Made by a program: the position numbers and the translations under genes. From Alloacidobacterium dinghuense (lineage in GTDB: Bacteria > Acidobacteriota > Terriglobia > Terriglobales > Acidobacteriaceae), in NCBI RefSeq assembly GCF_014274465.1, contig NZ_CP060394.1:1240001-1304000 (forward strand): a stretch of DNA of 64,000 bases. The letters run 5' to 3'. The notes under the pieces were generated by a model that saw only the letters and a list, made by a program, of their open reading frames with translations, was not told the DNA's origin and ran no database searches. How positions within the stretch are numbered: the stretch's first letter is position 1; each line of letters starts with the position of its first letter. Of this stretch, positions 14,172 to 24,590 are shown piece after piece.

Positions 14172-15077
14172 TTAGTGGGTACGCTCGACCAGATACCGCG
14201 CGACAGACTTGAGCCCATCCGCTGCGGATCCATAAGGGGCAATTTCAGCAAACGCTTCTGCAATCAGCTTCTCGGCGTGCTTGCGTGAGGCTTCAATGCC
14301 AAACACGGCGGGCCACGTCGCCTTTGCGCTGGCAAGATCCTTGCCGGCCGTTTTGCCAAGTTGCGCGGAATCCTGCGTTACATCGAGCACGTCATCGACA
14401 ATCTGAAAAGCCAGTCCCGCTTTGCGACCAAACTCGGTCAGGCGGTTTACATCTTCTGTTGATGCGCCCGCGTAAATGCCACCTGTGACAACGCTCACAC
14501 GAATGAGTGCTCCCGTCTTGGCTCGATGGATGGCATCGACCGACGCAGCCGTTGGTGATGTTCCTTCGCCTTCCAAGTCCAGCACTTGACCGCCAATCAT
14601 GCCCTCAACTGTGCCGGTGGCCTGAGCAATGAGGCGAATGATTTCAACATTTGCTGGTGCAGGGCAACGCAGATTGGCGAGCACCTCGTATGCGCGTGTC
14701 TGCAGCGCATCGCCTGCGAGAATTGCAATGGCTTCGCCGAAAACCACATGGCAGGTTGGTTTGCCTCGCCGCAAATCATCATTGTCGAGCGCGGGCAGAT
14801 CGTCATGGATCAGCGAGTAGGTGTGCAACATTTCAATTGCTGCGCCGAGTTCTTCAATGCCTTGGGGTAAGTTTCCATCTCCACGAATCATTCGTGCCGC
14901 TTCCATCGCAAGCACGGGGCGCAGGCGCTTGCCGCCGGCAAAGGTGCTATGCCGCATCGCTTTGTGAATGGAAGTGGGAACTTGCGACTCGGGCGGCAGC
15001 AGTCGTTCAAGGGCCGTATCGGTTAATTCCTGGTTCGAAAGGAGCAGGTCTTTTACTTCGGCTTGCATCCCCTTCAT
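14172..15077 (-). CDS. ispA: Polyprenyl (farnesyl-type) diphosphate synthase
   Basis: A 301-residue trans-prenyltransferase that condenses isopentenyl diphosphate with allylic diphosphates. The first aspartate-rich motif is DDLPALDNDD with the following RRGKPTCH; the second is DDVLD in FQIVDDVLDVTQ; GGKRLRPVL is also present. The residues before the first motif (LHTYSLIHDD) suit a short-chain (C15-C20) product, but chain length is an inference. The ATG at 15077 forms an ATGA overlap with the upstream membrane-protein gene. It is the last gene of the six-gene run that starts with the BlaI repressor. Confidence 0.93.
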   Translation of the reverse strand: MKGMQAEVKDLLLSNQELTDTALERLLPPESQVPTSIHKAMRHSTFAGGKRLRPVLAMEAARMIRGDGNLPQGIEELGAAIEMLHTYSLIHDDLPALDNDDLRRGKPTCHVVFGEAIAILAGDALQTRAYEVLANLRCPAPANVEIIRLIAQATGTVEGMIGGQVLDLEGEGTSPTAASVDAIHRAKTGALIRVSVVTGGIYAGASTEDVNRLTEFGRKAGLAFQIVDDVLDVTQDSAQLGKTAGKDLASAKATWPAVFGIEASRKHAEKLIAEAFAEIAPYGSAADGLKSVARYLVERTH

Positions 15078-16819
15078 GATAAATGAAGATTTTGCCCCCT
15101 CTTCGTTTGCGTGAAGACTGCAATCACGATGCAAAGCGCCAGCAGCGAAAGACCACGGCCCACTTTCACATCCCGAGTTGCTGCATAGCGCACGGTTACT
15201 ACGGAGTCTCCGGCGTCCAGCGGAATTGTGAGGAGTCCATCATCGCGATGTGGTCTGGTGGAAATGGACTTGCCGTTTACGTCGACCTGCCACGCGGGAT
15301 AATCCATGAGCTTGAAAACAGCATATGCCGGCCCCTGCAGATGAACTGCAACTTCCTTATTTTCGACCTTCCAGCGGCGAATGCTCAGCTTCGCTGGGAC
15401 CGCATCCACCGCGTTTTCCTTCCATTCAGGGTTCTCCGCAATCGAACTGTCGGCTTCGTCGGAGTCTGCCGTTTTGAGCAAGCGCACGAGCGGAAGATCC
15501 TGCTGGATATCTCCATTGTCCGCGTTCGCGGCTGTGTACTCATCGGTTCCTTCAAAGCCTTCGTTGCCGAATGTCACACGCTGGGCCGCTACGTTATCTT
15601 CGTCGTCGCAGGGCTGCCAGAAGCAGAATGCTGCAGACAAAGTCATCAAGACCGCCACACACAGCATGCTCACCGCGCGAATCAGAATGTGTCTTCGCGT
15701 ACTTGCTTCCAGAAAACTTCCGCGAAGCGCGAGTCCGATCAAAGTTGCCATCACGACGCCTAGTACGAGCAGCCATCGCCAGGGAAATTGCAAAAATTTC
15801 AACTCTGGCGTATCCCGCCAGAGAATGTCACTAAAGGGAAGCAGAAGGATGCAAATGGAGATCAGTGTTGCGATGAGCGGAGCGCGTGGCAGCCCCGGCC
15901 TGCTGGTTCGTCGTGAAAACATGGCTGCGATTCCTGCGGCAAGCAACATGGCAACCGCAATCAACGACGCCGTGTGTAGTACCTGATCGTGGAAAGCTTC
16001 GCCCGTGTGTCCAAAGAGAAAGCTGTCTTCGACACGCATCCCCGGCGCAATGGCGCGCGCAATCTCCACCCAACGCTGTTCATAGGCAGCGGGCACGATA
16101 TAGAAAGAAGCCAGTCCCAGCCCGAGCGCTGCCGCACCGGCAGCTCGCGCAATCAGGATGTACCGTCGGTCACGTATCGACGTGACCAGCACAAGAAGCG
16201 CCAGCAGGTAACAACCCATCACTGCGGAAGGTGCATTCGTAAGCCATAATGCCGCGATGATCAATGAAAGCGGAATCAAACTGGCTCGCTGACGCAATCC
16301 ATACAGCATGAGCAGCGGCAGCAATATCGCGGAAAGTAGTTCACCATAGGCTGCGCGCTCATAAGCCACAAACATCAGGTAGGGATTGAGCAAATACACG
16401 CAGGCGGCAACTGCAGCCGCATCTTCTGCCATCCATTCGCGCGCCATGGTGAAGAAACTCAGCCCGCAACCAATAAACGCGATCAAAGTGAACGCAACCG
16501 GCGTCCACGTCCACGGCAGCACAGCGCCCAACACTGCACCCAGGAGCCACGATAAAGGCGGGTAGAAGACAAAGCGAGGCTCTCCGGCGCCGTAGTTGGC
16601 AGAAGCGTCCCAGTGCGGATATAGCGTGCCCTCACTCCAATGGTGGACAACTTCCATCCAGGACTGCAGATGGAAGTCGAAGTCGTGTCCACACGATGTG
16701 CCGCGCCAGGCCAGCGGCAGCACCGCGATGGCCGCGCAGGCCAATATCAAGGAACGGCGCCGCCTGTTGCGTGTGGCGTTACTCGACAAGCTATGCGGAA
16801 AGCAGAACGAAATCCTCAC
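15074..16819 (-). CDS. Large multi-pass membrane protein (glycosyltransferase-C/PTPS-related type)
   Basis: A 581-residue integral membrane protein with about 11 hydrophobic segments. The first loop has a distinctive CGHDFDFHLQSWMEVVHHW and GTLYPHWDASANYGAGEPRF, the pattern of membrane proteins annotated as 6-pyruvoyl-tetrahydropterin-synthase-related. It resembles GT-C lipid-linked sugar transferases in layout (acidic first loop, exported C-terminal beta domain near residue 500-570). The start is GTG at 16819, where GTGA overlaps the stop of the acylase gene; the longer ATG at 16912 would read through 97 bases of that gene. It is coupled by ATGA to the polyprenyl synthase, so a polyprenyl-linked substrate is a reasonable guess. 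Confidence 0.8.
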   Translation of the reverse strand: MRISFCFPHSLSSNATRNRRRRSLILACAAIAVLPLAWRGTSCGHDFDFHLQSWMEVVHHWSEGTLYPHWDASANYGAGEPRFVFYPPLSWLLGAVLGAVLPWTWTPVAFTLIAFIGCGLSFFTMAREWMAEDAAAVAACVYLLNPYLMFVAYERAAYGELLSAILLPLLMLYGLRQRASLIPLSLIIAALWLTNAPSAVMGCYLLALLVLVTSIRDRRYILIARAAGAAALGLGLASFYIVPAAYEQRWVEIARAIAPGMRVEDSFLFGHTGEAFHDQVLHTASLIAVAMLLAAGIAAMFSRRTSRPGLPRAPLIATLISICILLLPFSDILWRDTPELKFLQFPWRWLLVLGVVMATLIGLALRGSFLEASTRRHILIRAVSMLCVAVLMTLSAAFCFWQPCDDEDNVAAQRVTFGNEGFEGTDEYTAANADNGDIQQDLPLVRLLKTADSDEADSSIAENPEWKENAVDAVPAKLSIRRWKVENKEVAVHLQGPAYAVFKLMDYPAWQVDVNGKSISTRPHRDDGLLTIPLDAGDSVVTVRYAATRDVKVGRGLSLLALCIVIAVFTQTKRGQNLHLS

Positions 16820-19248
16820 GGCAGCAAGCGGAGAGTGTGCGACGTGGATGCAGCAACAGCTGCTTCCGAAAAGGGAAGAGCAAAAGTCGTGCCGTGATAC
16901 CAGTTGGTCCACTGATCGCGATAGTAGGCACTGAGGGGATTGCCCGACTCGCCCATCACGATATTTTCCATGGAACCGTCGATATTGCTCCAGTCCATAG
17001 TGAACCGTTGCGATGGCCCGAAGGTGCGATCCACCTGCTTCACCGTGGTCAGGTCACCCGACTGCGGCTGAGCACCGGTGCCAGTCCAATTCTTGAAGTA
17101 GGGAATCAGGCCATAGAGCGGATGCTCAAGATCGACCGGATACTTATCGCCATAATGCCAATTGCGCAGATCGGCGGGCGCATGGCCTTCATCGATTCCG
17201 CGGCTTACGCAAGCCGCAAGAAAGTCGTCCCAGGTGGCATAGTCTTTCGGCAGCCACTGTGCCGGCGCATGCATCACGATTTCCTCCTGCGCGAATGCGC
17301 TGGCTGCCCACTCGTAAAGCTTCGCGTCGTCGCCTAATTTGGGTTCCAGCAGCATGGGCCAGAACGCATGTTTGGCGGCTGCAACAATCGCAGCAGGAGC
17401 CGAGTCAACGCCGACGACACCATCCCATGAGCGCATCAGGTCCGCTGCCTGACGAAGGCGCGCGTCGGTAATCTTGGCGTGGTCAATCGCGTAGGCAAAG
17501 CGTTGCGCGAACTCCTCATCGAGTTCTGAATAGGTATCAGTTTGCAGCGTGATCATCTCAGCGGGGGTGAGCTTGTCTTTGCCGGAGAGCCATTTCCAGA
17601 TACGCTCATTCCGGTACGGGCTGGCCCACTCCAGCGTGATTTGATATGGATAATTATCTGGAGTGACGCGCGAGTTCGCTGTCGCGAGAATGCCGTTCGC
17701 TGGATCGAACGTGCTGGGCATCTGGTCGAAAGGAATAAAGCCCTGCCACTCATGCTGCGTGTCTGCGATCGGCGTTCCCTTTATTCCTGTTGGCCGATTA
17801 GGAATGTAGCCGATAGCCTGATAGCCGATGTGTCCCTGATCGTCGTCGTAAATGACATTGAGTGTAGGAGCCCACCAGTCGGTTACTGCCTGACGAAAGG
17901 ACTCCCAGTCGGTTGCGCTGTTCAGATCGAAGAGCGGAAGGCGATTCGCCTTCGAATCGTATGCGACCCAGCGCAGCGAAAGCGTGCGCCTCTCGTTCGG
18001 CAGGACCGGATTGAGCACGACCCCGTGATCGCTGCGCTCCACATCGACCGTCACATCGCTTCCGCCGCGTACATGGATCGTCTCTTTCGTGTGCTCAAAG
18101 GCATGCCAGCCGCTCGCGCTCTGATATTCGTTCTGCGCATTCGTCTGCTCGACGTAAATGTCCTGCGTGTCGCCATAGAGAGCCGTGTATCCCCACGCAA
18201 TGTGATTGTTGTGGCCCGCAATGACAAAGGGAACCCCTGCAATCGAAACTCCGGCTACATGAAAGCCGCCGGACTTGAGATCGACTTCATACCAGGTGTT
18301 GGGGATGTTATGACTCAGGTGCATGTCATTCGCGAGAATCGGCTTGCCTGTCGCCGTATGCGCTCCGGAGATCGCCCATTCGTTCGAGCCCGGGTTGCAC
18401 TCGCGGCAAACATCTCTCGACCCCCCGATCACCTCGCGAAGACGCAAAAGATCCTGCAGGGATGTCTGCGACTCATCGAGAGGCACATCGGGAATGCTCT
18501 GCTGGGGTGCGGTCAGATCAGGAGGCGCAACCGTCGGCGGATGATCGCGCCACGATCCGGTCGGATAAAGATCAGCCGAGAGAGTTGGCCCCAGGCGTGA
18601 CTCAATTCTTTCCCGGCTCAATTTGTCCTGCCAATGCTGGTCGAGGATCTGCACCATGTTCAGACCGATGAGAACCGAATCAACCGGCTGCCACGCTTTC
18701 GGCCTGTACCTCAGAAGTCGAAATTCAGCGGGAAGGTGTTCGCGGTGCGAGTCGATAAACGCATTCACTCCGCGCGCATAATCTTCAAAATAGCGGCGGT
18801 CGCGTTCGGGGAGGGTCGCCGTCATGCGTTCCGCCGTGGCGCGCATTTGCAAGACGCGCTGCATGCGGTCGTGTTCCAGAAGATTCTTGCCCAGAAGCTC
18901 GGCGAGTTCGCCCGCAGCCAATCGACGCGCCATATCCATCTGCCAGAGACGGTCTTGCGCAGTGACGTAACCCTGCGCCTCAAACAGATCATCGAGCGTG
19001 GCGGCTTCGATATGCGGAATGCCGTGCTGATCGCGTCGCACGTTCACCGCAACCGAGAGACCCGGCAGGCGCGCCTGTCCGTCGAGCTGCGGAAGCGAGT
19101 CGCGCATGGCATGTTTCAGCCACCATGCTCCGCCAAGCACGCCGACCAGCAACGCGACAATGATGACAAATACGAATCCAACAAAGAAGCGCAGAATCGG
19201 ATGCCGGCGCTTCTCTTCTTTCAGTTGCACAGTTCTGCCGAGAGCCAT
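16816..19248 (-). CDS. Penicillin acylase family N-terminal-nucleophile hydrolase
   Basis: An 810-residue amidohydrolase with an N-terminal membrane segment (about residues 19-44), so the enzyme is probably anchored and periplasmic. It has the alpha-subunit region (NVRRDQHGIPHIEAATLDDL) and a maturation site at G287/S288 in PGSNEWAISG. S288 would be the catalytic N-terminal nucleophile after autocleavage. The beta-subunit landmarks KPILANDMHLSHNIPNTWYE and AGHNNHIAWGYT follow. Family members cleave beta-lactam side chains, acyl-homoserine lactones or other N-acyl amides; the substrate here is unknown. It starts 49 bases after the repeat lipoprotein. Confidence 0.92.
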   Translation of the reverse strand: MALGRTVQLKEEKRRHPILRFFVGFVFVIIVALLVGVLGGAWWLKHAMRDSLPQLDGQARLPGLSVAVNVRRDQHGIPHIEAATLDDLFEAQGYVTAQDRLWQMDMARRLAAGELAELLGKNLLEHDRMQRVLQMRATAERMTATLPERDRRYFEDYARGVNAFIDSHREHLPAEFRLLRYRPKAWQPVDSVLIGLNMVQILDQHWQDKLSRERIESRLGPTLSADLYPTGSWRDHPPTVAPPDLTAPQQSIPDVPLDESQTSLQDLLRLREVIGGSRDVCRECNPGSNEWAISGAHTATGKPILANDMHLSHNIPNTWYEVDLKSGGFHVAGVSIAGVPFVIAGHNNHIAWGYTALYGDTQDIYVEQTNAQNEYQSASGWHAFEHTKETIHVRGGSDVTVDVERSDHGVVLNPVLPNERRTLSLRWVAYDSKANRLPLFDLNSATDWESFRQAVTDWWAPTLNVIYDDDQGHIGYQAIGYIPNRPTGIKGTPIADTQHEWQGFIPFDQMPSTFDPANGILATANSRVTPDNYPYQITLEWASPYRNERIWKWLSGKDKLTPAEMITLQTDTYSELDEEFAQRFAYAIDHAKITDARLRQAADLMRSWDGVVGVDSAPAAIVAAAKHAFWPMLLEPKLGDDAKLYEWAASAFAQEEIVMHAPAQWLPKDYATWDDFLAACVSRGIDEGHAPADLRNWHYGDKYPVDLEHPLYGLIPYFKNWTGTGAQPQSGDLTTVKQVDRTFGPSQRFTMDWSNIDGSMENIVMGESGNPLSAYYRDQWTNWYHGTTFALPFSEAAVAASTSHTLRLLP

Positions 19249-19297
19249 CTCGATGACATTGTCTCATCGGATGCGGTGTCGAGACCAAGCCCGATGG

Positions 19298-20089
19298 TTA
19301 CTCAGCCAGCTTGAATATTCGGATTTGTACGAGTTTTGCGATGGTAAGATTGTTGAGCCCGCGCGCCTGCATGTGCTGGATGAATTCCGGCGTAACCTTG
19401 AAAATGCGCATCTGGATCAGTTCATCAGCATTGGGCTGGTAGCCCATGGCGCGGTACTGTTTCACCTCTTCAGGATTCACTCCGTGAATTCTGAAGGCGA
19501 TCAGCTTCTCCGCCGGAAGGTTCGGAAAGCCGAGGTCGGACATGCTCTTCACATAGGCCGGATCGACCTTGAAGATTCGCAACGCGATGATGTTGTCCGT
19601 TGTGATGCCGGTAACTCCGGCCGATTGCAACGCTTGAATCCACGAAGTCTCAATGTGGAAGAGCGTGTACGCTTCGAGCTTCTCCGAGTCGTAACCGGTG
19701 AAACCCATCTTTGCCATACGCGCAACAAAAGCCGGATCGGGAACGAAAGTAAAGTCGCCATTCAATGTCAGGTCGTGCACGGTGCCTGAGCAGGTGAGCT
19801 TTCCTGCCTCCGATGCGATCACTGCGTCGACATGCGTTCCGTCGTTTTTCAGATCGGCCAGCGTAAAGCCTGTGAAGTTGCTCAGGGGCATGTCGCTGTC
19901 GTTCATGTTGCAGCCATGTTTTCCGCCCTCGCAGGAGTCCCGCTCCAGCTTGAATTGCACGCGGTCGCCTTCAGTGGATGGCGCGATATTGCAGCTTCCA
20001 TGCAGCGGCTGAAGCTGGTCGTCCGCATGCAGTACCGAAGCGCAACCGGCGACGAAAAGGGCGCTGAGAACCACGGAACACGTTCTCAT
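19298..20089 (-). CDS. Lipoprotein with tandem helical repeats shared with the M56 peptidase
   Basis: A 263-residue predicted lipoprotein. The signal peptide ends in a lipobox (LFVAGC, C16). A cysteine-containing N-terminal domain (about 28-115: C33, C53, C60, C100) looks beta-rich. Residues 117-263 are about five repeats of roughly 28 residues of the pattern PxxxxxMxxxGF/Y...LIxxRIFxV. The same repeat makes up the tail of the adjacent M56 peptidase. I do not know a named family. Its ATG overlaps the stop of the M56 gene (ATGA at 20086-20089). Inference: a periplasmic or outer-membrane partner of the sensor. Confidence 0.8.
   Translation of the reverse strand: MRTCSVVLSALFVAGCASVLHADDQLQPLHGSCNIAPSTEGDRVQFKLERDSCEGGKHGCNMNDSDMPLSNFTGFTLADLKNDGTHVDAVIASEAGKLTCSGTVHDLTLNGDFTFVPDPAFVARMAKMGFTGYDSEKLEAYTLFHIETSWIQALQSAGVTGITTDNIIALRIFKVDPAYVKSMSDLGFPNLPAEKLIAFRIHGVNPEEVKQYRAMGYQPNADELIQMRIFKVTPEFIQHMQARGLNNLTIAKLVQIRIFKLAE
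19301..19741 (-). repeat. About five degenerate 28-residue protein repeats in the lipoprotein
   Basis: Successive units include PAYVKSMSDLGFPNLPAEKL, PEEVKQYRAMGYQPNADELI and PEFIQHMQARGLNNLTIAKL, each followed by a short strand-like IRIFKV element. The unit length and consensus match the M56 tail, implying duplication between the two genes. Confidence 0.85.
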
Positions 20090-22224
20090 TGCTGATTCTC
20101 CTTCGCCTGATCGCTGTCATCCAGGATGCCGGAGATACGCAGCTTCACCAGTTTCTGAATCGTAAGTGGCGTAAAGCCGTGGCGCTTGGCCGATGCGATG
20201 AAATCGGCATTGATGTTGAAAATCCGCATCTGTTCCAGTTCTTCGACCGTTGCGTCCGGAAATTGCGCCTTGATGCTCTTTGCATATTCCGGCGTTACGC
20301 CCTGCACGCGCAGCGAGAGCAGCTTCTTTGCAGGAATATTGCTGAAACCCGCTTCCTTCATTCCTGCAACGAATTCAGGAGTGACATTGAAGATGCGATA
20401 CGAGATCAGATCATGAAAGCTCGATGCCTCGATGCCGTCCGCATGCAGCTTGGCGGCGTAATCCGGGCTGACGCCCTGCACTTTGAGCGCGATCAGATCG
20501 TCGACACTCGGCTTCCCGAAGCCAACCTTCGCCATCGCATCCGCATACTCGGGCGTAACGTCCTGCACTTTCATGGCGATGAGCTTATGCAGATCAGCGT
20601 TGTAACCGGCAGCACGCATGCCGGCCATGTAGTCGGGCGTTACATCCTGCACTTTCAACGCAATCAGCTCGTCGACATTCGGCTTTTCCCCGGTGGCCTT
20701 GGCCATCGCATCGGCGTATTCCGGAGTAATGTCCTGCACCTTCATGGCGATGATTTTGTGCAGATCCCCGTTGTAACCGGCCGCCCTCATGCGAGCGATA
20801 TAGTCCGGTGTCACGTCCTGCACTTTCAGCGCGATCAGGTCATCCACGCTGGGCCGTTGTCCGGTTGCCTTTGCCATCTGCTCCGCATACTGCGGAGTAA
20901 TATCCTGCGTCTTCATCGCAATGTACTTGTCCAGGTCCACGTTGTAGCCGGCAGCGCGCATCTGATCGATGTAGTCGGACTTCCCGTTTGACGAGGGCGC
21001 GGGTGTCGCAGATTGATTGAGCTCGAGCGTCGCTCCATCCGGCGACACAAGCACCGCCTTTGCCGCGTGAACGGACGTCGAAGCAGCCGCAGCGACCGAC
21101 GTGTGTATGGCTGGCGCTTTCACCGCAGCGTGCGTACGGACCGTCTTTTGTACCGCGTGGAGGATCGATGCCGACACCTTCGGCGCAGATTTGAAACTGG
21201 CGAAGACCTGCGGCAAAGGGCAGATGAACAGGACTAGCAAAGCCGCCATTCCTGCAAGCGACAAGGGCTTGAGGTCACGGGGCTGCTCTTCGGCATCGCC
21301 AAGAATACGAAGGACGCGTGCGCGCAGGCCCAGGCGCCCCTGATTGCCATCCAGAGCCATGGCGAGATGCAGATGTGTCTTCCGCTGTTCTTCCAGGCGC
21401 AAAAGAGCCGTGGCATACACAGCAGGATCGTGGCACGTTTCAACGGCAATATCGTCGCAGCAGAGTTCGCGCTGTTCGCGCAGACGATGGCTGAGCCACC
21501 ACACAGCCGGATGGAAGAAGAAGAGCGTTTCGATCATCGTCTGCAGAATGTTCCAGAAATAGTCGGCGCGGCGGATGTGCGCCAGCTCATGCGCGAGCAC
21601 CACTTCCAGTTGTTCCGGGCTCAGGCTCGTGAGCGCAGTGACGGGAAGCAGGATCAACGGCCGGATGACGCCGACTGTAAGAGGCCCTGCGATGCGGCTT
21701 GAAAGCCGAAGATCGACGAAGCGCGGGATACCCATCTGCAACCGGATACGGTCGAGTCCGATACGTAAAGTGTGCGGAGCCTTTTGCAGCGCACTGTGGC
21801 GCAGTCGCCGAATGAGCCACCATCCGCCGATCGTCTTGATGGACAGGCAGGCGACGCCAACAAGCCAGAAGAAGTCGAGGTACGGCATCACGTCGCTCGC
21901 CAGCACCTTCGCTGTTGCGCGTGGCGCGGCAGGCATATCGATGACGGCCAGGGGACGGGGAATAATCTGCAGGGAAGGCTTCGCGCCTGAAATGCCGGCA
22001 GCTGGCATCGTTGCTGCCTGACGATAGACCGACTCCTCATAAGCGAGCGTGCCCATCGACGCGACCAGCATGCCGAGCAGCGCAGCGAGCGCAAGAACGT
22101 AGCGCGCCTGGGTGCGTCCCTTTCCCATCCATAGGTCAGCAAGCTTGTAAACGAGCGCTATGGTCGCGGCTTGCCAGCAAAAGTGGATCAGTGTCCAGCC
22201 CAGAGCTTCCCAATGATGTGTCAT
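20086..22224 (-). CDS. M56 family (BlaR1/MecR1-like) membrane metallopeptidase with tandem-repeat C-terminus
   Basis: A 712-residue membrane protein. The N-terminal membrane segments (about 8-27, 42-61, 117-133) surround the zinc-peptidase domain with HELAH at 212-216 and EQRELCCDD near 250-258, typical of M56. A further transmembrane helix near 322-343 exports the C-terminus. In BlaR1 that position holds a penicillin-binding sensor domain; here it is replaced by an alanine/threonine-rich linker and about ten repeats of 28 residues (418-705). The peptidase of BlaR1 inactivates the BlaI repressor. The gene overlaps blaI by ATGA and its own downstream lipoprotein by ATGA. Confidence 0.92.
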   Translation of the reverse strand: MTHHWEALGWTLIHFCWQAATIALVYKLADLWMGKGRTQARYVLALAALLGMLVASMGTLAYEESVYRQAATMPAAGISGAKPSLQIIPRPLAVIDMPAAPRATAKVLASDVMPYLDFFWLVGVACLSIKTIGGWWLIRRLRHSALQKAPHTLRIGLDRIRLQMGIPRFVDLRLSSRIAGPLTVGVIRPLILLPVTALTSLSPEQLEVVLAHELAHIRRADYFWNILQTMIETLFFFHPAVWWLSHRLREQRELCCDDIAVETCHDPAVYATALLRLEEQRKTHLHLAMALDGNQGRLGLRARVLRILGDAEEQPRDLKPLSLAGMAALLVLFICPLPQVFASFKSAPKVSASILHAVQKTVRTHAAVKAPAIHTSVAAAASTSVHAAKAVLVSPDGATLELNQSATPAPSSNGKSDYIDQMRAAGYNVDLDKYIAMKTQDITPQYAEQMAKATGQRPSVDDLIALKVQDVTPDYIARMRAAGYNGDLHKIIAMKVQDITPEYADAMAKATGEKPNVDELIALKVQDVTPDYMAGMRAAGYNADLHKLIAMKVQDVTPEYADAMAKVGFGKPSVDDLIALKVQGVSPDYAAKLHADGIEASSFHDLISYRIFNVTPEFVAGMKEAGFSNIPAKKLLSLRVQGVTPEYAKSIKAQFPDATVEELEQMRIFNINADFIASAKRHGFTPLTIQKLVKLRISGILDDSDQAKENQQ
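20110..20973 (-). repeat. About ten tandem 28-residue repeats in the M56 sensor tail
   Basis: Units alternate between two sub-types, for example PDYIARMRAAGYNGDLHKII and PEYADAMAKATGEKPNVDEL, each ending in an IALKVQDVT-like strand. Six central units are nearly identical in DNA, suggesting recent tandem duplication as 56-residue pairs; the last three or four are more diverged and resemble the lipoprotein repeats. Confidence 0.9.
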
Positions 22225-22613
22225 CGTGTCAGCCTCTTTTGCTCGATCAGATTACGAATCTCTTCCAGCTCCTCGTCGCTTGTCGGTTGCATGGCCAGCG
22301 CGTGCATCGCGAGCTGCGTCGCCGAACCCGAGAAGAGCCGCTCACTCAGATCCCGGAGCAATTGGTTCTGCGTCTCCTCCTGGCTGGCAGCCGCGCGATA
22401 GATATGAGCCTTGGCTGACTCTTCGCGCTCGACCAGGCCCTTTTCTGTCATGATCTGCAGGATCTTGAGTACCGATGTATAGACCACCGTCCGCTGCAAA
22501 TTGACAGCATCGTGCAGCTCACGGACTGTGGCCGGTCCTTTTTCCCAGAGAACGCGGAGCAGTTCCAGTTCAGCTTCAGTTGGCTTCGGTAGAGATTGAC
22601 GCTTGAACTTCAT
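22221..22613 (-). CDS. BlaI/MecI family transcriptional repressor
   Basis: A 130-residue winged-helix repressor. The family opening PTEAELELLRVLWEKGPATV (residues 11-30) is intact, followed by the recognition helix region (LQRTVVYTSVLKILQIMTEK) and GLVEREESAKAHIYRA. BlaI-type proteins bind as dimers to palindromic operators and are removed by their M56 partner. The stop overlaps the M56 start (ATGA), the classical blaI-blaR1 pairing. The promoter just upstream holds two inverted repeats that are likely autoregulatory sites. The -10 box ends only nine bases before the ATG, so the mRNA may be nearly leaderless. Confidence 0.95.
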   Translation of the reverse strand: MKFKRQSLPKPTEAELELLRVLWEKGPATVRELHDAVNLQRTVVYTSVLKILQIMTEKGLVEREESAKAHIYRAAASQEETQNQLLRDLSERLFSGSATQLAMHALAMQPTSDEELEEIRNLIEQKRLTR

Positions 22614-22622
22614 GGTCCCGAA

Positions 22623-22663
22623 TCTATACGAAGTGTTTCGTAGTTGTCAACGAAAATCTTCGT
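22623..22663 (-). promoter_or_regulatory. Promoter with two BlaI-type operator palindromes
   Basis: On the minus strand a consensus -35 TTGACA (22650-22645) is followed by a 16-base spacer and TATAGA (22628-22623) as -10. The spacer and -10 contain the inverted repeat TACGAA-n4-TTCGTA (22627-22642), and a second copy ACGAA-n4-TTCGT covers 22650-22663 over the -35. The half sites are the same. This is the expected arrangement for repression by the adjacent BlaI-type protein; binding is inferred. Confidence 0.75.
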
Positions 22664-22690
22664 AGGGAGATAAACCTTTGAAAATACAGG

Positions 22691-23639: not shown

Positions 23640-24590
23640 TCAAGATTCTGTGGCTGAGGGAACTTGTTTACGGAACGGCGATACTGTCCGACGACCCCAC
23701 CACAGCCACATCAGCAAAGCGATCACGAGAATCAGTGGAACAACCAGAAGACTACCTTCCGGGCCGGTTGCGCCGCCAGTCCAGAGCAACGGCCCGGTCG
23801 GATGCTCAGAAAATAAGTGTCCGGCCGCGACCATCCCGCTGTCGGAAGTGCCGTAAAAGTAAGTTTCTCCCCAGTCCCAGGCGGCATGGAAGCCGATAGC
23901 CCACCATAGCGAGCCGGTGTACCAGAGGCTGAGGCAGAAAACGAGCCCGATCGCCGCCGCGGCAAAGAGTCCAACCGGAGACTCGCCGGGATTGCTGCCG
24001 TGAATGGCGCCAAAAGTAGTTGAGAGAATCAGCGCGCCCCACCAGAATCCAAGACCCCGGGTGAGGGTGTATTGCAGGTATCCACGGAGAAGCGATTCTT
24101 CGAAGATTCCCACAAATACAAACGCGACAGCCCACTCCATGGCATATTTCCAGGCAAGCGGACCACCTAACGGTGTCCCATCGAAGGCGAGTAGATGCGA
24201 TTTCCATAGCGCCGCAACCAGAACGGAGATGGCCGCGAAGCCCCAAAGAAGTCCTGAAAGAAAACGAATGAGCCGGGCCTTCCCCGCATATCCGTAAACC
24301 GCAACCGGGCGCCGTTCAATCCTAGACATGATGAACGTCGTCAGCATAACCAGGCAGACCTGGACCATTTCCTGAATCAGCGCGACGTGAGCCGGCTGCG
24401 GGGCACCCTGCTCTACGCGGAAATGAATAAAGGTAAAGATGGGAAGGGCCGCAATGAATTCGAGCGCGAGGAAAATGGCGATGAAGATCAGCGCACTCCA
24501 TCCCGCCCGTATTCCATGAGCACCGATGAAAATCGAGGGTGAATCGCGTTCTGGTTCTGCTGTAACTATCTGGGTGAGTTCTTCCGCCAT
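23640..24590 (-). CDS. CPBP family intramembrane glutamic endopeptidase (CAAX protease-like)
   Basis: A 316-residue protein with about eight membrane segments. The family motifs are in order: EESLLRGYLQ (EExxxR), then FGAIHGSNPGES with the conserved histidine, and HAAWDWGETYF near the C-terminus. Bacterial members cleave within or next to membranes, often in peptide maturation or self-immunity, but the substrate here is unknown. The N-terminus faces outward from a short soluble segment containing PERDSPSIFIGAHG. No bacteriocin genes are adjacent. Confidence 0.92.
   Translation of the reverse strand: MAEELTQIVTAEPERDSPSIFIGAHGIRAGWSALIFIAIFLALEFIAALPIFTFIHFRVEQGAPQPAHVALIQEMVQVCLVMLTTFIMSRIERRPVAVYGYAGKARLIRFLSGLLWGFAAISVLVAALWKSHLLAFDGTPLGGPLAWKYAMEWAVAFVFVGIFEESLLRGYLQYTLTRGLGFWWGALILSTTFGAIHGSNPGESPVGLFAAAAIGLVFCLSLWYTGSLWWAIGFHAAWDWGETYFYGTSDSGMVAAGHLFSEHPTGPLLWTGGATGPEGSLLVVPLILVIALLMWLWWGRRTVSPFRKQVPSATES

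Follow-up and report, generated by a model that had tools for sequence, protein, structure and literature searches.

BlaR1–BlaI systems are known mainly through antibiotic resistance. In these systems, as in MecR1–MecI, a BlaI-family repressor is paired with an M56 membrane zinc protease, and the promoters carry palindromic operators. The sensor domain of BlaR1 lies outside the cell with the protease facing the cytosol, and Asn101-Phe102 is the cleavage pair of Staphylococcus aureus BlaI (PMC9834060). For Bacillus licheniformis, a second input has been described, in which wall fragments act on BlaI itself (PMC3305447). Here, we analyzed a 64,000-nucleotide stretch of the Alloacidobacterium dinghuense genome (the window; bases 1,240,001-1,304,000 of a single 6.27 Mb contig) that contains a run of six open reading frames (ORFs), all on the minus strand, encoding a BlaI repressor, an M56 protease, a secreted repeat protein (REP), an acylase, a GT-C-like membrane protein, and a polyprenyl synthase. 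Judging from the sequence, we consider it probable, at roughly two chances in three, that this run comprises two units side by side: a self-regulated blaI-M56-rep sensor and an older acylase-GT-C-FPP synthase cassette with its own promoter. The core of the first unit is of the known BlaR1–BlaI type; what we propose as new is a BlaI-M56 sensor in which a single type of repeat occurs in both the receptor and its partner.

The core genes resembled those of the described systems. The 130-aa repressor (22221..22613, minus strand) belongs to the Penicillinase_R family (PF03965, residues 12-125, E 3.1e-25, 89.2 bits against a cut-off of 22.6), with PDB matches to 2g9w, MecI 1okr, and BlaI 1sd4. The next gene (20086..22224, minus strand) encodes a predicted membrane zinc protease of the BlaR1 type, assigned to the M56 peptidases by PF05569 (E 2.2e-34) and by a zinc motif of the form HEXXH...E, namely HELAH at residues 212-216 together with Glu253. 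H212, E213, H216, and E253 were invariant in 35/35 M56 members, and the 41-residue spacing from His212 to Glu253 is the same as that from His201 to Glu242 in BlaR1. The membrane and protease fold predicted by AlphaFold2 (AF2; mean predicted local distance difference test [pLDDT] 80.6) was also BlaR1-like; Foldseek matched the model to BlaR1 8exq (E 1.4e-5, root-mean-square deviation 13) and to 8exr_A (template modeling score 0.60 on target, E 1.9e-3). The pairing of BlaI as regulator with M56 as sensor, as the original prediction had it, is supported, and the gene order is kept in three genomes of the window's genus (G000, G001, and G003). Its description of six minus-strand genes with four overlaps and one 49-base gap was likewise borne out by the ORFs, and the Pfam and NCBIfam matches fit the names it gave. 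Its upper boundary, 22663, lies in the promoter, as blaI begins at 22613.

The locus differs from BlaR1–BlaI in several respects. At E 0.01, Pfam gave no match to a beta-lactam-binding sensor domain in the M56 protein of the window, nor did the families listed for 35 members include one, and NCBIfam blaR1_generic reached 91 of 400 bits, over residues 118-342 only. Sensing of beta-lactams or acyl-homoserine lactones by the receptor is thus unsupported. Instead, the protein carries a C-terminal tail (~417-705) predicted to form about ten alpha-hairpin repeats of 28-29 residues, which by analogy with BlaR1 should lie outside the cytoplasm. A gene for a further repeat protein follows, and the six-gene run includes neither a beta-lactamase nor a penicillin-binding protein gene.

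Upstream of blaI, we found a candidate tandem operator and promoter (22621..22664, minus strand) with the same architecture as that before BlaI in relatives. It contains two dyads of the ACGAA-N4-TTCGT type, TACGAAGATTTTCGTT at 22664-22649 and TACGAAACACTTCGTA at 22642-22627. A predicted -35 element, TTGACA (22650-22645), lies between the dyads and overlaps the end of the first, and a -10-like TATAGA/TAGATT follows at 22628-22621. The exact tandem pattern occurred in 7/61 genomes (the window genome and 60 relatives), with G034 matching at one mismatch, and in 79/399 genomes of the class; the reversed-pattern control gave 0 among the matches listed. At 67 of the 71 tandem sites checked among the matches listed, a BlaI-matching ORF started within 400 bases. 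The other two BlaI genes of the window genome had no such dyads nearby. At the level of a predicted operator, the palindromic site of a self-regulated BlaI operon is present, and the blaI promoter is very likely bound and regulated by BlaI itself.

The third gene, rep (19298..20089, minus strand), encodes a 263-aa protein with a hydrophobic N-terminus, a small beta domain (~29-117), and, at 119-258, five repeats of a helix pair that are homologs of those in the M56 tail; the AF2 model (pLDDT 90.2) consisted of the beta domain and the five helix pairs. The M56 query matched the rep gene at E 8e-22, and the repeat is far beyond chance and recurs in relatives. REP had been called a repeat lipoprotein: the repeats are confirmed, but the lipoprotein assignment is doubtful, as the lipobox-like Cys is placed differently in the G001 and G003 orthologs. 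No Pfam or NCBIfam match to the window REP was obtained at E 0.01, and the Pfam matches of other family members varied by member among unrelated-looking families (e.g. LYTB in 18/37, best E 2.8e-6). A Foldseek search of the REP model against solved structures returned nothing at E 0.001 or better and no convincing match; the TALE-like repeat protein BurrH (4cj9) showed 6% identity, and its Z was of a size that the tool ascribes to arrangements common among repeat proteins.

The tail and the rep gene tended to occur together. Among 71 units with enough sequence, both were present in 39, the tail only in 4, REP only in 1, and neither in 27, so that a rep gene lay beside 39/43 tailed units vs 1/28 tail-less ones; because many of these units were found with REP as the query, the counts are biased. 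The subset of 35 units found by the operator alone is given for that reason, and there REP accompanied 10/10 tailed and 0/25 tail-less units. The 71 units are mutually related, and the Fisher value is no fair probability. One of them, L208, was scored as tail only though REP is present, which would make the count 40/43 if mended; an apparent M56-REP fusion at this locus was rejected as an artefact, as a run of N joins both genes.

Taken with the promoter anatomy, this arrangement suggests how the first unit might work. BlaI dimers on both dyads would close the promoter, bracketing the -35 and abutting the -10. Homology and co-occurrence suggest that the M56 tail, outside the cytoplasm, may pair or compete with secreted REP built of the same repeat. 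An outside change, for example in REP availability or in the state of the wall or outer membrane, could then switch on the cytosol-facing zinc protease, which, on the model of BlaR1, would inactivate BlaI. Expression of the operon would rise, and two of its products, BlaI and REP, would reset the switch. An input from wall fragments on BlaI, as in B. licheniformis, might operate here too. Alternatively, REP might be the effector, that is, a stress-protective periplasmic protein induced on removal of BlaI, with the repeats serving as a ligand-binding unit (e.g. for peptidoglycan or lipid) shared with the receptor. The self-regulated module closes with rep, and REP carries the added beta domain and has free-standing relatives, all of which would suit an effector; the tight link between tail and REP, however, fits a receptor-partner pair equally, and sequence does not separate the two. 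We regard an effector role as a real possibility, though one short of an even chance.

Many genomes of this phylum, a major one in soil, contain the BlaI-M56 core with a receptor lacking a recognisable beta-lactam-binding domain. We scanned a species-genome collection with a REP alignment and retained the best 80 of 112 relatives as named loci, which were mostly labelled Acidobacteria or subgroups thereof, with singletons bearing the labels Gemmatimonadetes, Rhodothermia, and Sphingomonas. BlaI was found in 52/80 named loci and M56 in 57/80; L196 and L197 were the sole loci in which the acylase was found. All 52 loci with BlaI had blaI, M56, and rep in this order on one strand together with the exact tandem operator. 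Nine of the 28 loci without a BlaI match at the threshold were inspected; several of the other 19 are short contigs. L245 (Rhodothermia) contained a BlaI-like gene, an HExxH protein, and REP, and in L231 an HExxH protein ended in a repeat-like stretch. In the remaining seven (L227, L234, L253, L263, L266, L272, and L275, several labelled Pyrinomonadaceae or gp4), the REP-like gene was free-standing, without an HExxH protein as neighbor; such genes must have a different role or a receptor elsewhere. We found no literature on this module among open-licence PMC papers, which is no proof of absence.

The module usually ends at rep, since the next gene was mostly on the opposite strand (26/40 rep units having a next gene) and co-directional ones rarely recurred. 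Any co-directional gene was common to at most two units, one such pair being the acylase of L196 and L197; one convergent gene family recurred beside six rep units. The distant M56/REP pairs of G031, G034, and G035 had no acylase within the 18-19 kb around each. No acylase appeared in the available sequence of 50/52 named loci with BlaI; 8 of the 52 have less than 3 kb past REP, including 4 with less than 500 bases.

In the window, four of the five junctions overlap, and the sole gap (49 bases, 19297-19249) lies between rep and the acylase gene (16816..19248, minus strand, 810 aa); it measures 46 bases in G001 and 49 in G003. Inside this gap lies a putative acylase promoter (19258..19288, minus strand), recognised by a conserved motif and consisting of TTGGTC (19288-19283) and an extended -10, TGAGACAAT (19266-19258), 9 nt before the acylase ATG. 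TTGGT and CCGATGAGACAATGTC were invariant in the gaps of G000, G001, and G003. GAGACAAT also preceded the acylase in three genomes (G020, G022, and G032) in which a BlaI-M56 pair of this type was not seen next to the gene. The hexamer [TG]A[CG]AAT ended 4-24 bases before the acylase ATG in 18/28 orthologs vs 10/791 windows further upstream, the motif having been chosen after the sequences were seen, for which reason we do not treat the binomial value as a test. At other starts the same hexamer was found in 2/89 (M56), 2/40 (REP), and 1/69 (BlaI) cases. Within the window, it preceded 2/38 ORFs of at least 200 aa, namely the acylase and REP, the latter copy lying in the M56 coding end. The 28 orthologs were drawn from 30 loci, as L076 lacks the N-terminus and L072 was left out; the start codons of G022, G026, and G036 are uncertain, and G022 was scored as a miss though GAGACAAT lies close upstream. 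The best reading of the gap element is a promoter belonging to the acylase itself.

The acylase cassette was also found apart from the sensor. Acylase relatives occurred in 55/61 genomes. Acylase, GT-C, and synthase genes were adjacent in G020 and G022 and apparently in G005 and G023 (contig-end fragments); the M56 query found nothing in G020, G022, and G005 and matched with its protease part only in G023. GT-C and synthase genes were adjacent in G034, and acylase and synthase genes in G036, while in several other genera other genes separated the acylase from the synthase over a distance of a few kilobases. The M56-REP-acylase order, with near-full-length relatives of M56 and REP, was, in contrast, found among the 61 genomes only in G000, G001, and G003, where the full six-gene order is kept (the synthase of G001 being split by a contig end). 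A fourth genome of the genus, G002 (59% complete), gave matches to none of REP, acylase, GT-C, and synthase; the full order was not found in the remaining 57 genomes, and among the 80 named loci it appeared in 2 only, apparently G001 and G003 again.

These distributions bear on the original prediction that the six genes form a single regulon, in which BlaI and M56 would control an N-acyl hydrolase and isoprenoid supply in an envelope-stress or acyl-signal response of this genus. A true operon would account for the single strand, the overlaps, the 46-49-base gap kept in three species, the lack of a reported terminator or consensus promoter in the gap, and the order shared by the same-genus genomes. 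However, that order was not found beyond the genus, nearly all named BlaI loci showed no acylase in the available sequence, no penicillin-binding domain was found in the receptor, and the gap carries the conserved promoter-like acylase element. The single-regulon reading is weakened because of this element and the genus-limited order, and we consider it unlikely. Both findings named in advance as able to overturn it are largely borne out by the sequence: a promoter-like element is present in the gap and also stands at acylases with no BlaI near, and the order kept in three genomes of the genus was not found in the 57 other genomes. We instead favor two adjacent units, the first of which would have come to lie directly upstream of the cassette in this genus. 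The second would be transcribed from its own gap promoter, and BlaI control of the acylase would amount at most to read-through. A neat six-gene run can thus be two units, with the junction keeping an apparent promoter for the downstream gene.

Several observations weigh against this two-unit interpretation and the proposed switch. A scan for the sigma-70 consensus reported no promoter in the gap, and the terminator scan found none there, leaving read-through possible. The putative acylase -35 is weak with a 19-base spacer, 10/28 acylase orthologs lack the strict -10 motif, and the hexamer was, as stated, chosen post hoc. The predicted template modeling score of the M56 model, 0.47, makes the placement of the tail relative to the membrane part unreliable. 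The Asn-Phe cleavage pair of S. aureus BlaI is not conserved, as an alignment to MecI places His-Ala at this position, and BlaI may therefore be inactivated in another way here. Nor is the tandem operator peculiar to the REP module, since 25/35 units found by operator alone lack both tail repeats and REP, and the REP-like genes without an adjoining M56 in 7/9 inspected BlaI-less loci indicate that REP is not only an M56 partner. Units without the tail include L306, L311, L312, and similar loci, in which a short M56 (~425 aa) with the tandem operator lies beside convergent sulfate-assimilation-like genes (CysN/CysD-like by eye).

Acidobacterial BlaI-M56-HtrA units offer a further comparison. 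In the window genome (~2.569 Mb, L170:4250-7654) and in G049 (L193:6116-12024), adjacent BlaI and M56 genes are followed by a Do/DegP-type protease (TIGR02037). The G049 unit has the tandem operator and an M56 without a repeat tail, and the unit of the window genome has no such dyads nearby. The DegP/HtrA neighbor suggests a role in envelope quality control for some of the BlaI-M56 pairs of acidobacteria.

Four of the checked tandem sites lacked blaI. One, at 3,283,826-3,283,862 of the window genome (L165:7827-7863), precedes an unlinked gene for a secreted 314-aa orphan (L165:8075-9019). Neither Pfam nor NCBIfam matched this protein; the window genome encodes two paralogs of it, and the 60 relatives yielded a single weak match. 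In G003 (contig 36, L191:7489-10177), the tandem operator precedes an ADOP-family permease gene in a cluster with genes that are PadR-like by eye. In G332 (L337, near 93,420), it precedes a secreted-looking 332-aa gene, a candidate trans target, and the site in G096 is unclear. Single dyads with one mismatch allowed were hardly above the control (15 vs 10) and are weak evidence for that reason. Two exact single dyads of the window genome, at 894,319 and 4,728,141, precede genes for ADOP or ADOP-like permeases. Identity across genomes was 43-47% among the tandem-site ADOP of G003, the ADOP behind one of these single dyads together with its ADOP neighbor, and the ADOP near the G049 BlaI-M56-HtrA unit, against ~27-32% to the other ADOP-like permeases compared; TIGR03434 supports the ADOP assignment for three of them. 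The two single dyads, and the position of the G003 tandem site between a PadR-like gene and an ADOP gene, might indicate that the dyads belong to another regulator, such as the PadR-like protein, but this is very improbable given that blaI follows 67/71 checked tandem sites and is present with the operator at 52/52 named loci, and that only one of the 4 exceptions precedes an ADOP gene.

A broader interpretation is that the module is an envelope alarm widespread among acidobacteria: the M56 tail and REP, built of the same repeat, would form a contact-reading switch, BlaI would act in trans, by way of the same tandem operator, on an ADOP/MacB-like permease and secreted orphans, and read-through into the acylase cassette would be specific to this genus. 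We put this forward tentatively, as a rather doubtful extension. If true, a repressor-protease switch would read protein-protein contact in the envelope and not a drug. The operator, candidate regulon, and partner protein provide a handle on what BlaI-M56 pairs without beta-lactamases sense.

Upstream of blaI, the window contains a gene for a CPBP (Rce1-like) membrane protease (23640-24590). G015 has a CPBP-type protease gene belonging to the same cluster, one gene away from the acylase and with no BlaI; this arrangement, in one genome, fits an insertion of the module between the CPBP gene and the acylase. The acylase neighbors in other genera were, by eye, of homocysteine methyltransferase/MTHFR, Fur-like regulator, PIG-L-like, and beta-propeller-like types; none looked like an MEP gene, though no profile search was made with them, and a dedicated isoprenoid (MEP) locus was rejected.

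The acylase itself has a hydrophobic N-terminal anchor and belongs to the penicillin amidase superfamily, with a full-length PF01804 match (E 4e-192) and with Ser288 where the N-terminus of the beta chain would fall, the PDB beta chains aligning from residue 288. D-succinylase 7eby was its best PDB match; penicillin G acylase and PvdQ share PF01804 and the Ser. Identity as an acyl-homoserine lactone acylase (PvdQ) was rejected, as the match reached 44.2 of the 950 bits set by the NCBIfam equivalog cut-off. The two genes that follow encode a GT-C/YfhO-like polytopic membrane protein (15074..16819, minus strand, 581 aa; PF10131 [PTPS_related] and PF09586) and a short-chain, farnesyl-type polyprenyl diphosphate synthase (14172..15077, minus strand, 301 aa; PF00348), their starts being set later than in the longest ORF to fit the overlaps. 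The synthase scored above the NF045485 cut-off for farnesyl diphosphate synthase (324.3 vs 275 bits).

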